Source of the DNA: an uncultured Alistipes sp.
GTDB lineage: Bacteria; Bacteroidota; Bacteroidia; Bacteroidales; UBA932
DNA length: 53,176 bases
NCBI GenBank assembly: GCA_945787505.1
Contig: CALZHC010000004.1
Span: 1 to 53,176, forward strand
Direction: 5' to 3'
The notes under the pieces were generated by a model. That model had not been told where the DNA came from and ran no database searches. It worked only from the letters and a program-made list of their open reading frames with translations. Positions 39,102 to 43,447 of the stretch are shown piece after piece. A program made the translations under genes and the position numbers. Position 1 is the stretch's first letter; the number at the start of each line of letters is the position of its first letter.

Positions 39102-40022
39102 ATGAGTAACTTTAAATCTATTTTTAAGGTAGTTATCGACTATGTTATAATTACTTTAGGTCTGTTGTGTTACACGGGCGGATGGGTTATATTCGTCATT
39201 CCCAACAAGATGGTCGGTGGAGGTGTTTCCGGTATCGGTGCAGTTATCCAGTATGCTACCAATGGTGCCATACCTGTCAGCTGGACCTTCTTCGTCATCA
39301 ACATAGTCCTCCTTCTCATAGCCCTCAAGGTTCTGGGTAAAGGTTTTGGCGCGAAGACGGTGTATGCTATTATCGTGGCATCTCTCTTCTTCGATATCCT
39401 TCCAAAGGTTCTCCCGCAAGATTTCATTCAGGACATTGCCATAGACAACGGAAAATTCCTGTGTACTCTGCTTGGCGGTGCCCTCTCCGGCCTTGGTATC
39501 GGACTTACCTTCAGTAAGGGTGGAAGTACAGGAGGTACAGATATCATCGCTCTTATGGTAAATAAATACCGCAGTATCTCTCCAGGTAAGGTGATCATGT
39601 TCCTGGATATCTTTATTGTCGGTTCTTCTGTATTCCTTCCTTCTGAAAAGAGCTTCGGACTGAGGATAGCTGATATAATGTACGGTTATATTCTTGTATT
39701 CGTCGTAGGCTATGTGGTCGACCTCTACATGGCTGGCAGCAAGCAGTCGATGCAGGCATTCATCTTCTCCAAAAAGAGTACTGAAATTGCAGACCTGATC
39801 TCTAACGAGCTCCATAGAGGTGTCACTGTTCTCGATGGTCAGGGATGGTATACAAAGGCGCACGAAAAGGTTCTTCTCGTTGTTATCCGTAAAACAGAGT
39901 CTGCGATGCTTCTTTCTCTCATCAGACAGGTCGACAGGGATGCCTTTATCTCAATCGGTTCAGTCATGGGCGTTTACGGCCAGGGTTTCGATAAGATAAA
40001 AGACAATAAACAGAAAAAATAG
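39102..40022 (+). CDS. YitT family membrane protein (DUF2179)
   Basis: This 306-residue protein has about six transmembrane helices (residues 8-205) including the family phrase FSKGGSTGGTDIIALMVNKY, followed by a soluble C-terminal DUF2179 domain (about 215-300, RGVTVLDGQGWYTKAHEKVLLV). Function is unknown; YitT/YvjA proteins are suspected transporters. It follows leuS by 14 nt and is probably the last gene of that run. A strong dyad and a new promoter follow. Confidence 0.9.
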   Translation: MSNFKSIFKVVIDYVIITLGLLCYTGGWVIFVIPNKMVGGGVSGIGAVIQYATNGAIPVSWTFFVINIVLLLIALKVLGKGFGAKTVYAIIVASLFFDILPKVLPQDFIQDIAIDNGKFLCTLLGGALSGLGIGLTFSKGGSTGGTDIIALMVNKYRSISPGKVIMFLDIFIVGSSVFLPSEKSFGLRIADIMYGYILVFVVGYVVDLYMAGSKQSMQAFIFSKKSTEIADLISNELHRGVTVLDGQGWYTKAHEKVLLVVIRKTESAMLLSLIRQVDRDAFISIGSVMGVYGQGFDKIKDNKQKK

Positions 40023-40080: not shown

Positions 40081-40107
40081 TAATCGGCACCGAGGGTGAT
40101 TTCATAA

Positions 40108-40115
40108 TAATTTTG
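40108..40115 (+). promoter_or_regulatory. -7 promoter element for the AraC gene pair
   Basis: TAATTTTG is an exact consensus match and leaves a 19-nt leader to the ATG at 40135. Confidence 0.6.
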
Positions 40116-40134
40116 GATATATACTAAAATTATT

Positions 40135-40809
40135 ATGGAACCACTCTTTTTTATTTTTGCAGAATTATTCAAATCACTGCTCTTTTCATTTTTACTCTTC
40201 CGGATGGTGCAAATACTCTCCGGTCAGCTTCCAAAATGGATGGCGTATCTGATACATATTTTAAATACTCTTTCATTGTCAGCTTCATTGATAACGCTGG
40301 GGAAGTGGAGTTGCGGATATGTCATCTGGGTATTACTGTGTCTGAACTTTCGCTATTGCTTCAAGCCCGAAAGGAGGCAAAACACCAAAATAAATGATTA
40401 TGAAAAGGATGTCTCAGAACCGCAGATTCTGTCCGAGAATCCGGCCGCATCTGACTTTTCTAATATCTCCAATGTCAAACAGCGCCTTTTAGAGTATTTT
40501 GAAAAGGAAAAGCCTTATCTGTCACCATTCCTTACCATAGACAGGGTTGCATCCGATATCTATACGAACAAGACATATATTTCCAAGATCATAAATGATG
40601 AGATGAAAATGAATTTCCGGGAATTTGTTAATTCTTACAGGGTTAAGGAGGCAATCCGTATTTTCAGTGAAGATGAGGATATTGCTATAAATAAACTAAA
40701 GGATCTTTCCGGTTTTAACAGCTATTCATCTTTTTCAACAGCATTTAAACAACATGCCGGCACTACTCCCGGTGAGTGGAGGCGGGATTTGAAGGGGAGG
40801 AGAGAATAA
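40135..40809 (+). CDS. Membrane-anchored AraC-family regulator
   Basis: This 224-residue protein has two or three N-terminal transmembrane helices (about 4-26 and 36-76), a short linker (about 80-110) and a C-terminal AraC/HTH_18 DNA-binding domain (about 118-220). The HTH shows LTIDRVASDIYTNKTYISKII and the second helix region GFNSYSSFSTAFKQHAGTTPGEWRR, the usual AraC signature. The anchor is far shorter than that of seven-helix AraC receptors, so it may be a cut-down sensor. Its stop codon overlaps the start of the next gene (TAATG), so the two are translationally coupled. Confidence 0.85.
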   Translation: MEPLFFIFAELFKSLLFSFLLFRMVQILSGQLPKWMAYLIHILNTLSLSASLITLGKWSCGYVIWVLLCLNFRYCFKPERRQNTKINDYEKDVSEPQILSENPAASDFSNISNVKQRLLEYFEKEKPYLSPFLTIDRVASDIYTNKTYISKIINDEMKMNFREFVNSYRVKEAIRIFSEDEDIAINKLKDLSGFNSYSSFSTAFKQHAGTTPGEWRRDLKGRRE

Positions 40810-41180
40810 TGAACAGTGTGGATGAATTGATTTATGAGATTGTCGATGACAAGGTCAAGAAAAACAAGTTGTATCTGGACCCGCATATGACTCTTGAAAA
40901 ACTTTGTGATGTGGTGGGGGCGAACCGAACATATGTATCACGTGCCGTCTGCTCCAAACACAAAAATCTCAAGGATTACCTTAACGGAATGAGGACCGAG
41001 AATCTTATAGAGGAGATAACTTCCTACAAGTGTAATGACAGTAATTTTGAGGATCTGGACGAATTGGCTTGCAGTTACGGTTTTCCTTCGCGCAAGAGTA
41101 TGGACAGAATCCTGGCAAAGCATACCGGTGTGAGTTACCGTTCGCTCAGAAAGAGACTTAAGCGAGAATCTTGCCGATGA
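40809..41180 (+). CDS. Small AraC-like HTH protein, partner of the preceding regulator
   Basis: This 123-residue protein is almost only an AraC-type double HTH. It aligns along its length with the C-terminal domain of the preceding gene: MTLEKLCDVVGANRTYVSRAV matches its first HTH, and YGFPSRKSMDRILAKHTGVSYRSLRKRL its second. It lacks the membrane helices. The ATG at 40809 overlaps the preceding stop codon; an in-frame upstream start at 40776 would overlap more. Its 3' end overlaps the convergent holA by 23 bp. A regulatory role is inferred from fold only; targets are unknown. Confidence 0.78.
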   Translation: MNSVDELIYEIVDDKVKKNKLYLDPHMTLEKLCDVVGANRTYVSRAVCSKHKNLKDYLNGMRTENLIEEITSYKCNDSNFEDLDELACSYGFPSRKSMDRILAKHTGVSYRSLRKRLKRESCR

Positions 41181-42180
41181 GTTCTGTCAGAAGCTCTCCT
41201 TCAGTGGCGCTTCCTGATGTGCCGTTCTTCGATTTGATGTCGTACTCTCTAAGGTAGGCGATTATCTTCATCGTTTTGCTTAGGGAGTATGAACGGGCGG
41301 CAGCTATATATGGTCCGAAGAGTCGCATCATCTTCGCAGTACTCTCTATGGAACTTTTGTTGGCTGAACTGGTCGCATGTAGCTGCTCGAGTTTTGAAAA
41401 AAAGAAAAAGAGAAACCCAAGGGTCTTGGGTAATGGGTAGGTCTTCGGAGATTCTCCAAAATAGTATGCTAACTTGAATGCTTTTCCGGCATCTCGTACA
41501 GCGAGCGCATTTGTGAGTTCTGTGATGGAGTATTCCCTGCTTATGCCTACATTCTTTTCGATGTGGGCAACTGTGATTGTTTTCTCTGTGGGGGAGATTG
41601 TCTTGGTGAGCTTGTCGGTCTCCCTCTTTATCTTCCTCAGGTCGTTGCCTGCGTACTCGGCCATCAGAGCGGCCCCTTCGTTGTCGATTCTAAGTCCTCT
41701 TGAGGCGAAGTAGTCGCAGATCCATTGTGGCATTCTATCCTCACGGATTTTTGGGGACTCTATTACAACGCCCTTCTTGCATATCTCTTTGTAGAACTTG
41801 CTTCTTTTGTCCAAACTCTTGCCGTTTATGCAGACTACCAGCACGGTAGTTGGTGAGATTATAGGGAGGTATTTTTCCAGATCATCTATTCTTTTTGCAA
41901 GCTGCCCCTCTTTGATTACTACCACTCTTCTTTGGGCCATCATGGGGAATTCACAACATAGAGAAATTATGCTCTCGATGTCGGCATCTGCCCCGTAAAA
42001 GATATGCTGGTTGAAGTCCCTTTCGTGTGGTTCGAGGGCCTTTTCCATTATTAGGCTGCAGAGCTCTTCGGTATAAAATGGCTCCTCTCCCATCAATATA
42101 TAGATCGGACTGAAGATGCCATTTTCGACATCCTTAAGGGTTTTTCGGTAGAGAGCGTAATCAAATTCCTGTTTGGCCAT
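41158..42180 (-). CDS. holA: DNA polymerase III delta subunit
   Basis: This 340-residue protein matches HolA, the clamp-loader subunit that opens the sliding clamp. Landmarks include PIYILMGEEPFYTEEL near residue 22, MMAQRRVVVIKEGQL, the VVCINGKSLDKRSKFYK segment, and LRKIKRETDKL near 170. It is somewhat divergent from the E. coli protein, as usual in this phylum. The exact promoter element at 42186-42193 lies only 5 nt before the ATG, so the message may have almost no leader. Confidence 0.92.
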   Translation of the reverse strand: MAKQEFDYALYRKTLKDVENGIFSPIYILMGEEPFYTEELCSLIMEKALEPHERDFNQHIFYGADADIESIISLCCEFPMMAQRRVVVIKEGQLAKRIDDLEKYLPIISPTTVLVVCINGKSLDKRSKFYKEICKKGVVIESPKIREDRMPQWICDYFASRGLRIDNEGAALMAEYAGNDLRKIKRETDKLTKTISPTEKTITVAHIEKNVGISREYSITELTNALAVRDAGKAFKLAYYFGESPKTYPLPKTLGFLFFFFSKLEQLHATSSANKSSIESTAKMMRLFGPYIAAARSYSLSKTMKIIAYLREYDIKSKNGTSGSATEGELLTELIGKILA

Positions 42181-42259: not shown

Positions 42260-43447
42260 ATGAATGAACCTATAAATGAAGCTTGCAGCAAGTTTACTCT
42301 TCCGCAAGAGTGTAAAGAAAAAGGTATTTATCCTTACTACACTCCTATCGAATCGGAACAGTCTACCGTGGTAAAGGTTGGGGGGAAGGATGTTATGATG
42401 TTCGGCTCGAACAGTTACCTTGGTCTTTCTGATGACCCTCGCCTTAAGGAGGCTGCAAAGAATGCGATTGACAAGTATGGTACCAGCTGCTCCGGATCCA
42501 GATTCTTGAACGGAACTTTGGATATACACATGGCTCTGGAAAGAAAGTTGTGTGAACTCCTCGGTAAGGAGGAGTGTGTGACTTTCAGTACAGGTATGCA
42601 GGTAAACCTGGGTGTTGTTTCGGCATTGGGTTTTAGAGACGGTTATGTGATATTGGACTCTTTGGATCATGCCTCTATCATTGACGGAAGCAGACTCTCT
42701 TTTGCCAAAGTTTTGAAATTTAAGCACAATGATCTTGCCTCTTTGGAACAGAAACTCAAAAGCTGTGAAATAGACAAGCCTAAGCTCATTGTAGTGGATG
42801 GTATCTATTCCATGGAGGGTGATATTGCACCTCTTCCTCAGATGTGTGACCTTAAGGAGAAGTACAATGCCCTTCTGATGGTGGATGATGCACACGGCCT
42901 TGGTGTTCTGGGAAGAAACGGTCGCGGTACATCAGACCATTTCGGTGTTACAGACAGAGTAGACTTGATTATGGGTACTTTCTCCAAATCGTTTGGCTCA
43001 CTGGGCGGTTTTATTGCCGGTAACAGTAATATAATCAACTATATCAAGCATAATTCACGCTCTCTTATCTTCAGTGCATCCATGCCTCCTGCCAATATTG
43101 CAGCAGCCTCTAAGGCTATTGATATCATGCTCGAGGAACCTCAGAGAATAAAACATCTTTGGGATCTTGCTGACTATGCGCGTGCAGCATTCCGTAAGGC
43201 CGGTTTCAATACAGGAAACAGTGAATCTCCTATTCTTCCTCTTTTTGTGGGTGATATGCTAAAGGCAATGAGTGTTGTTCATCTTGCGCTTGATGAAGGT
43301 ATTTTTGTAACACCTGTAATTCCACCGGCTGTTCCTCAGAACGGCTCTATGATCCGTTTTGCATTGATGGCAACCCATACCTTTGAACAGGTGGATATTG
43401 CTGTCGAAAAGCTGACATCCATCTTCAAAAAACTGGAAATCTTCTGA
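42260..43447 (+). CDS. spt: Serine palmitoyltransferase (alpha-oxoamine synthase family)
   Basis: This 395-residue PLP enzyme should condense L-serine with an acyl-CoA to 3-ketosphinganine, the first step of sphingolipid synthesis. The PLP lysine is Lys243 in GTFSKSFGSLGG; the cofactor Asp/His pair lies in LMVDDAHGLGVLG, and the N-terminal GSNSYLGLSDDP and SGSRFLNGT motifs are typical. The related glycine C-acetyltransferase and 8-amino-7-oxononanoate synthase share these, but the N-terminal YYTPIES and the overall match favour the Bacteroidota sphingolipid enzyme. It heads an operon with the HsdR_N and cca genes. Other sphingolipid genes are not adjacent. Confidence 0.85.
   Translation: MNEPINEACSKFTLPQECKEKGIYPYYTPIESEQSTVVKVGGKDVMMFGSNSYLGLSDDPRLKEAAKNAIDKYGTSCSGSRFLNGTLDIHMALERKLCELLGKEECVTFSTGMQVNLGVVSALGFRDGYVILDSLDHASIIDGSRLSFAKVLKFKHNDLASLEQKLKSCEIDKPKLIVVDGIYSMEGDIAPLPQMCDLKEKYNALLMVDDAHGLGVLGRNGRGTSDHFGVTDRVDLIMGTFSKSFGSLGGFIAGNSNIINYIKHNSRSLIFSASMPPANIAAASKAIDIMLEEPQRIKHLWDLADYARAAFRKAGFNTGNSESPILPLFVGDMLKAMSVVHLALDEGIFVTPVIPPAVPQNGSMIRFALMATHTFEQVDIAVEKLTSIFKKLEIF

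Follow-up and report, generated by a model that had tools for sequence, protein, structure and literature searches.

Two adjacent genes for AraC-type proteins, lying at positions 40135-41180 of the 53,176-nucleotide stretch of DNA analysed here (the window), form a pair that is conserved across the family of the host organism and is not a decayed remnant. Gene 1 encodes a regulator in which an AraC DNA-binding domain (DBD) is anchored in the membrane, and gene 2, which starts on the stop codon of gene 1, encodes such a domain on its own. Joint action of the two proteins is inferred because the pair is conserved and its genes are coupled. Our preferred reading, to which we give about even odds (a probability of roughly 0.5), is that the genes form a bicistronic unit transcribed from its own promoter and insulated by a hairpin, whose membrane-held and free DBDs would act together on neighbouring half-sites.

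A membrane-anchored and a free AraC domain encoded by overlapping genes

Gene 1 (40135-40809, forward strand) is an open reading frame of 224 amino acids in which hydrophobic helices are followed by a linker and an AraC domain. The DBD, assigned to residues 112-217 (40468-40785) from the Pfam match at residues 142-217 and from DBD alignments, scores against HTH_18 with an E value of 1.4e-13 and 51.3 bits, above the curated cut-off of 33.6 bits. The membrane domain is restricted to residues 1-80 (40135-40374), as judged from hydropathy, from the similarity of its first helix to that of relatives, and from the length of those relatives, at about 390 amino acids. A Kyte-Doolittle scan gives two helices at a threshold of 1.6 and three at 1.0, so that the sequence-only reading, which had described two or three membrane helices joined to an AraC helix-turn-helix (HTH) domain, was fair in leaving the number open. 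Membrane helices and DBD are contained in a single chain, as in membrane-integrated one-component regulators.

Gene 2 (40809-41180, forward strand) encodes 123 amino acids. Its ATG (40809-40811) lies inside the TAATG at 40807-40811, giving the one-base overlap with gene 1 that had been noticed from the letters, and the two genes overlap or nearly touch in most relatives as well. Against HTH_18 the protein scores 20.3 bits (E 6.8e-4), under the cut-off of 33.6 bits, yet the full domain is covered. Three relatives pass this cut-off (L303, 60.7; L300, 66.0; L301, 47.2 bits) and a fourth, L079, stays under it with 22.7 bits. An AlphaFold2 model with a mean pLDDT of 88.6 shows a seven-helix domain with both HTHs kept. 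Foldseek matches this model to AraC-type DBDs of the PDB with probability 1.00 and a best E value of 1.5e-3, none falling below 1e-3; the neighbours include MarA and SoxS, which consist of a DBD only. According to the model, then, gene 2 is a protein of the two-HTH, seven-helix AraC-type fold. Residues N39, R40, Y42, R62, G91 and F92 are kept in all 16 aligned family members, and a hydropathy scan of gene 2 relatives found no hydrophobic helix. A whole-genome search aligned the DBDs of both genes with 26% identity (E 1.1e-5), in keeping with the earlier description of gene 2 as a diverged, HTH-only protein aligning with the DBD of gene 1. As a separate observation, the gene 2 frame lacks its usual stop in two same-genus genomes and runs on opposite the convergent gene holA, for 217 codons in G003 (L066:8329-8982) and 249 codons in G013 (L074:8264-9013).

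Conservation of the pair within the family

The host assembly comprises 1.5 Mb in 76 contigs and is 99.66% complete. The named relatives that a gene 2 alignment brought up belong to Candidatus Coprenecus and to other Bacteroidales that are likewise uncultured; NCBI ranks place Coprenecus in the Rikenellaceae, and we take the family of the host and these relatives to be GTDB UBA932. Of the 18 other genomes of the same genus, Candidatus Coprenecus, 15 carry the pair in this gene order and have holA following it. Loss of the pair in the remaining three (G004, G006 and G015) was considered and rejected: these genomes also lack the neighbouring essential gene leuS (E <= 1e-50), and thus the locus is missing from the assemblies. 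In all 15 fetched same-genus loci the order is leuS, one or two yitT genes, gene 1, gene 2 and convergent holA, with leuS and yitT visible in 14, since L071 sits at a contig end.

A gene-1-type DBD was detected at E <= 1e-24 in 140 of 199 genomes of the family. From the longer ranked list we sampled 128 gene 1 loci (28 plus 100), and 107 of these carry a second AraC open reading frame directly downstream; two of the 107 (L091 and L263) are doubtful, as the score of their second frame for gene 2 is no higher than that for gene 1. The distance between the stop of gene 1 and the start of gene 2, which is rough because the first ATG was used, falls between -50 and +10 nt in 86 of the 107 loci and is zero or negative in 72; it exceeds +10 nt in nine and lies below -50 nt in 12. 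Gene 2 is missing from all three g16 and all 17 g46 loci of the sample, which indicates that gene 1 can do without it, and from one of 16 g15 loci (L233), where the place fetched is probably not the orthologous one.

Outside the family, no second AraC frame was found beside the seven-helix AraC genes of other families in 16 loci (L092-L107). This control is not absolute, because a similar layout occurs in G388, from another Bacteroidales family, where a 445-amino-acid, six-helix AraC gene is followed after about 360 bp by a DBD-only AraC frame (L322:4650-6665), which may be a separate or distantly related instance of this arrangement. An order-wide search of 198 genomes at E <= 1e-24 returned 42 places, among them two with short frames outside the family, in G244 (197 amino acids) and G388 (166 amino acids). 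Three of the points by which the earlier proposal could be judged came out in its favour. First, the adjacency is conserved, in every same-genus genome with an assembled locus and in the 107 family loci. Second, the pair is absent from close relatives only where leuS is absent too. Third, gene 2 is not a frameshifted remnant, its frame being intact in 15 of 15 same-genus loci and its dN/dS low.

Selection on both genes and possible origin of gene 2

Nei-Gojobori estimates of dN/dS for gene 2 were 0.105 (L073/L077), 0.066 (L073/L078) and 0.16 (L066/L074), and for gene 1 in the same pairs 0.19, 0.137 and 0.136, with dS above 1, close to saturation, in L073/L078 and L066/L074. On these ratios the pair is under purifying selection, and the low values for gene 2 together with the constant order in the 15 same-genus loci imply that the pair is more than a chance arrangement. 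Comparison of the window with G001 is uninformative for gene 2, where a single synonymous change is the only difference, because the whole of 40500-41750 is 99-100% identical between them; the flanks drop to 87%, and a recent recombination event, or else strong constraint, may account for the identical tract.

A tree built from 110 DBDs shows gene 1 as one clade (support 97) and gene 2 as another, weaker one (79). The best tree does not join the two: gene 1 groups instead with many solo seven-helix AraC-type proteins of other families (support 84). Forcing gene 1 and gene 2 together costs 6.7 log units, with a p-AU of 0.384. The tandem duplication that had been proposed is therefore a possible, though unproven, origin of gene 2, since the best tree separates the genes and a joint clade is not rejected. 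Gene 2 branches are longer than those of gene 1, implying faster evolution, and this, with the HTH_18 score below cut-off in the window, is compatible with a weaker or changed contact of gene 2 with DNA.

A -7-like promoter element and a hairpin at the start of gene 1

The start codon of gene 1 lies in the 3' arm of a hairpin at 40093-40147 of the forward strand (arms 40093-40114 and 40126-40147), identified from a dyad, from RNA folding and from covariation. The 5' arm contains TAATTTTG (40108-40115), a match to TAnnTTTG, the Bacteroides -7 element according to PMC7366714. The T, A, TTT and G of this element are invariant in 12 Coprenecus starts of one alignment and 13 of another, about 20-30 nt upstream of the start codon in most Coprenecus loci.

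In the window, 19 of 22 base pairs of the dyad are matched (z 6.9), the RNA fold has a z score of -6.29 over 96 nt, and a U-rich run follows the stem up to about position 40158. The window is strongly diverged from other Coprenecus in this stretch and still folds. Most Coprenecus have the U-rich run, which is encoded by the first codons of gene 1 (M-E-T-F-F-I-F or similar). Tested against shuffled sequences, the dyad is significant (p <= 0.05) in 13 of the 15 Coprenecus loci, and the same holds for 24 of the 103 other loci and for 27 of the 240 starts used as controls; 118 of 129 loci (window included) entered this test, those with a far-internal first ATG or at contig ends being dropped along with L079 and L091. 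After removal of the near copies L064 and L077, 13 distinct Coprenecus loci remain, the window among them; their folding energies range from -21 to -34.5 kcal/mol and their z scores from -3.0 to -9.6. A start codon paired with upstream sequence at z <= -2.5 was recorded in 12 of these 13, in 18 of 103 loci from other genera and in 13 of 240 controls, two of which (L085, and L299 at 8080) turned out to be gene 1 under a different choice of start. RNAalifold predicts 18 pairs for the 13 loci, seven with two-sided changes; over the hairpin alignment 91.9% of cells are paired, with 19 two-sided changes, and the covariation of 0.369 (0.235 when shuffled) was not reached in any of 500 shuffles and beats all slides. 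In a different alignment, a shorter, seven-pair version of the dyad did not covary significantly (120 of 500 shuffles as high).

The same dyad could be a DNA operator rather than an RNA hairpin, with two inverted half-sites of about 18-20 bp through which the pair would regulate itself. AraC-type DBDs cover about 18-20 bp, the arms measure 18-30 bp and are centred on the presumed transcription start, and the significance in 13 of 15 Coprenecus loci would serve an operator as well. Against an operator, GU outnumbers AC among the dyad mismatches in Coprenecus by 42 to 15 (33 of 57 expected; p 0.011), an excess that is better explained by an RNA hairpin. Moreover, the stem is followed by the U-rich run, and the sense strand folds better on average than the antisense strand (-27.9 vs -21.8 kcal/mol), although the difference in z scores is not significant (p 0.08). 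We regard the operator as doubtful, but as deserving weight; it concerns the hairpin only and is compatible with any reading of gene 2.

Other searches around this element returned little. The hairpin was not listed by a generic terminator scan, which may be unsuited to it in the stems and loop lengths that it allows; no direct-repeat operator was found, and Rfam gave nothing relevant. A covariance model of the hairpin, run over 26 sources, recovered the Coprenecus starts of the window and L065 only, plus a weak place in L186 (E 0.062). Searching 12 genomes with the Coprenecus motif GTCTCYRTYRTAWCTTTG revealed no regulon: the motif occurs at 13 places, of which 11 are starts of gene 1, each in a different genome, and the other two are the mirror arm in G016 and an unrelated place with one mismatch in contig 5 of G000, while the reversed pattern, used as control, matched three times. 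Separately, the Coprenecus holA start was also seen in a strong dyad (CTGCAAAGTTA...TAAnTTTGCAG; L065:8603 and L067:9242), whose sequence resembles a pair of -7 elements turned towards each other, as divergent promoters would have them.

Repeated reduction of the membrane part

The anchor of two or three helices, which had been presented as the form of gene 1, turns out to be a reduction of a seven-helix form, since most relatives have about 360-410 amino acids and about seven membrane helices. In a model of the full-length relative L118 (387 amino acids; mean pLDDT 79.7, pTM 0.54, 15 sequences), residues 2-221 fold into seven long helices, and a linker that is disordered leads from these to the DBD. 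Among the 128 sampled loci, 81 have the longer frames, 79 of them with five to eight hydrophobic helices. The other 47 have gene 1 frames shorter than 260 amino acids, with one helix in 38, none in seven and two in two. On the DBD tree, built with the window and without the weak gene 1 scorers L079 and L091 (127 rows), the short state occupies 47 rows and requires at least eight changes, in seven genera. Some of the most extreme cases may be effects of assembly or insertion. In G146 (L327:2844-5064), an ATPase-like gene and a second open reading frame stand directly upstream of a 129-amino-acid gene 1, as if inserted into the membrane part.

Loci with a short gene 1 usually keep gene 2 (43 of 47), which suggests that the two DBDs outlast the sensor. 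The first helix of gene 1 in the window resembles helix 1 of the seven-helix relatives (six of 200 shuffles as good), and none of its remaining helices could be assigned to helices 2-7 by the shuffle test. Comparison of the membrane domain with the PDB gave only weak resemblances to rhodopsins and GPCRs, at E values of about 0.05 or worse. If the crude helix counts hold, an odd number of helices would remain (from seven to three or one), which would leave the DBD on the same side of the membrane.

Neighbouring genes

The sequence-only reading had seen no transporter beside the pair, overlooking the gene directly upstream (39102-40022, forward strand), which encodes a membrane protein of the YitT family with a C-terminal DUF2179 domain (PF02588 and PF10035). 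Together with leuS, yitT lies upstream of the pair in the window, and it lies upstream of gene 1 in 100 of 128 sampled family loci. A fixed link between pair and yitT is not general, because the fetched stretches upstream of the pair contain yitT in none of ten g45 and none of four g17 loci. We consider yitT a candidate, and the nearest one, for a target of the pair. A loose parallel is that YczE membrane proteins, which have DUF161 in common with YitT, are tied to dedicated regulators in other phyla, according to PMC4944035. One yitT copy is present in the window, in G001 (L064) and in G007 (L068), and 12 other same-genus loci have a second copy, 42-45% identical, while L071 stops at the end of its contig.

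Downstream, a convergent gene on the reverse strand (41158-42180), presumably holA for the delta subunit of DNA polymerase III, shares 23 bp with the end of gene 2, and its position is unchanged in the 15 fetched same-genus loci. Between holA and an HSDR_N gene, the window and G001 carry a gene of the PLP-dependent aminotransferase family (Aminotran_1_2; 42260-43447), found in none of 14 other same-genus loci. PADLOC detected nothing except one weak mad1 match (E 0.007), and a phage search found nothing.

A different neighbour follows the pair in some relatives. In six genomes (G164, G101, G173, G196, G201 and G070; L286-L291), corresponding to five of 15 g4 and one of two g9 loci, the gene 2 frame continues without a stop into ettA, the gene of an ABC-F translation factor, giving open reading frames of 706-733 amino acids. 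EttA was recognized by TIGR03719 in two of these joint frames, and in the other four by 74-89% identity to those two over the joint frame. From sequence, such a frame may yield either one protein or an ettA translated from its own ATG. In loci of g16 and g46, which lack gene 2, ettA directly follows gene 1 in eight of ten examined (L292-L298 and L328).

How the pair may work

Under our preferred reading, both genes would make up a single bicistronic unit of regulation, transcribed from a promoter of its own and separated from leuS-yitT by the hairpin. First, gene 1 would be a one-component regulator whose membrane part keeps its AraC DBD at the inner face of the membrane. Second, coupled translation from the gene 1 mRNA would provide gene 2 as a second, soluble AraC DBD without a sensor. 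Third, the two DBDs would occupy neighbouring half-sites, the membrane protein bringing or modulating its free partner, with the net effect of an AraC dimer split over two chains. As to expression, the hairpin would act like a terminator on transcripts arriving from yitT and would also cover the start codon, and an mRNA from the pair's own promoter, beginning in or near the loop, would escape it. Sensing in the membrane by gene 1, autonomous use of the promoter, termination at the hairpin and joint binding to DNA are all inferred steps of this proposal.

Gene 2 could instead antagonize gene 1, as a sensorless DBD that occupies the same sites or contacts the DBD of gene 1, that is, a built-in dominant negative that sets a threshold. 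A DBD-only protein that is made from a common mRNA and shares 26% identity with the gene 1 DBD would suit this role, and conserved coupling would hold the two at a set ratio. However, the recognition-helix regions are conserved differently, with NRTYxSRA and R..LDR in gene 2 and TNKxYLS and SFxxAF in gene 1. This suggests that the two proteins have half-sites that differ, and we find an antagonist rather unlikely.

We hold it improbable that gene 2 is a small regulator of other genes that has only the operon in common with gene 1. MarA and SoxS act as such independent small regulators and are, as DBD-only proteins, among the structural neighbours of the gene 2 model, and the continuation of gene 2 into ettA in six genomes would also agree with a role of its own. 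Nevertheless, gene 2 stands almost always directly behind gene 1, including in ten of ten g45 loci without an upstream yitT, and a non-exhaustive search did not find it as a family on its own. Last, a decaying leftover of a duplicated regulator, to which the sub-threshold Pfam score in the window, the long branches and the absence from g16 and g46 could point, is disfavoured to the point of being very improbable by the low dN/dS of gene 2 in three pairs of relatives, its intact frame throughout the genus and its retention where gene 1 has lost most of its membrane part.

Relation to known regulators and implications

The pair has partial counterparts among known regulators. Closest to gene 1 are the solo seven-helix AraC-type proteins of Bacteroidales with which it groups in the best DBD tree; they likewise have N-terminal membrane helices and a C-terminal AraC DBD, in about 350-400 amino acids. 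We found no family name for them. These proteins have no adjoining DBD-only gene (16 loci), whereas gene 1 of the window has two to three helices and a second DBD beside it. ToxR-like regulators (CadC, ToxR; PMC5936718) also join a DBD and a membrane anchor in one chain without a phosphorelay. They are bitopic and carry a winged HTH at the N terminus and a sensor in the periplasm; gene 1, with its C-terminal AraC HTH, several helices and no periplasmic domain, is not of that type. The co-component systems VtrA/VtrC and ToxR/ToxS, as described in PMC9214523, resemble the pair in their partly overlapping genes, in a membrane-bound transcription factor and in the idea of an obligate partner. That partner is a periplasmic sensor in the VtrA/VtrC type (PMC9214523), unlike gene 2, which is a second cytoplasmic DBD.

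In size and fold gene 2 resembles stand-alone AraC domains of the MarA/SoxS type. The second HTH of AraC proteins usually ends in TPxxYR; gene 2 differs in departing from this end and in being tied to a gene for a membrane-bound AraC protein. The best-supported classification, from sequence features, would be a variant of membrane-integrated one-component regulators that is neither of the ToxR nor of the co-component type. No description of such a membrane-bound and free AraC pair was found in searches covering open-licence PMC papers. Only about 3% of one-component regulators are membrane-integrated and most are soluble, according to PMC5936718.

It is tempting to go further, and to speculate that the pair is a split AraC regulator, in which a tethered and a co-translated free domain make up one DNA-binding unit, the seven-helix sensor is repeatedly discarded while the halves persist, and the mRNA starts inside a hairpin that ends upstream transcripts and masks the start codon in any RNA that reads through, so that the pair would be made only from its own promoter, the free half being joined to EttA in some relatives. 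Taken as a whole, we consider this extended version unlikely. If true, the joining of gene 2 with EttA would link a DNA-binding domain to an energy-sensing translation factor. A DBD on both the membrane protein and a free partner would offer a membrane-held protein a simple route to the chromosome; the natural series of seven-helix, two-to-three-helix and one-helix forms lets the purpose of the sensor be asked; and the site at which hairpin, promoter element and start codon coincide would provide a clean test case for insulation against read-through in Bacteroidales.
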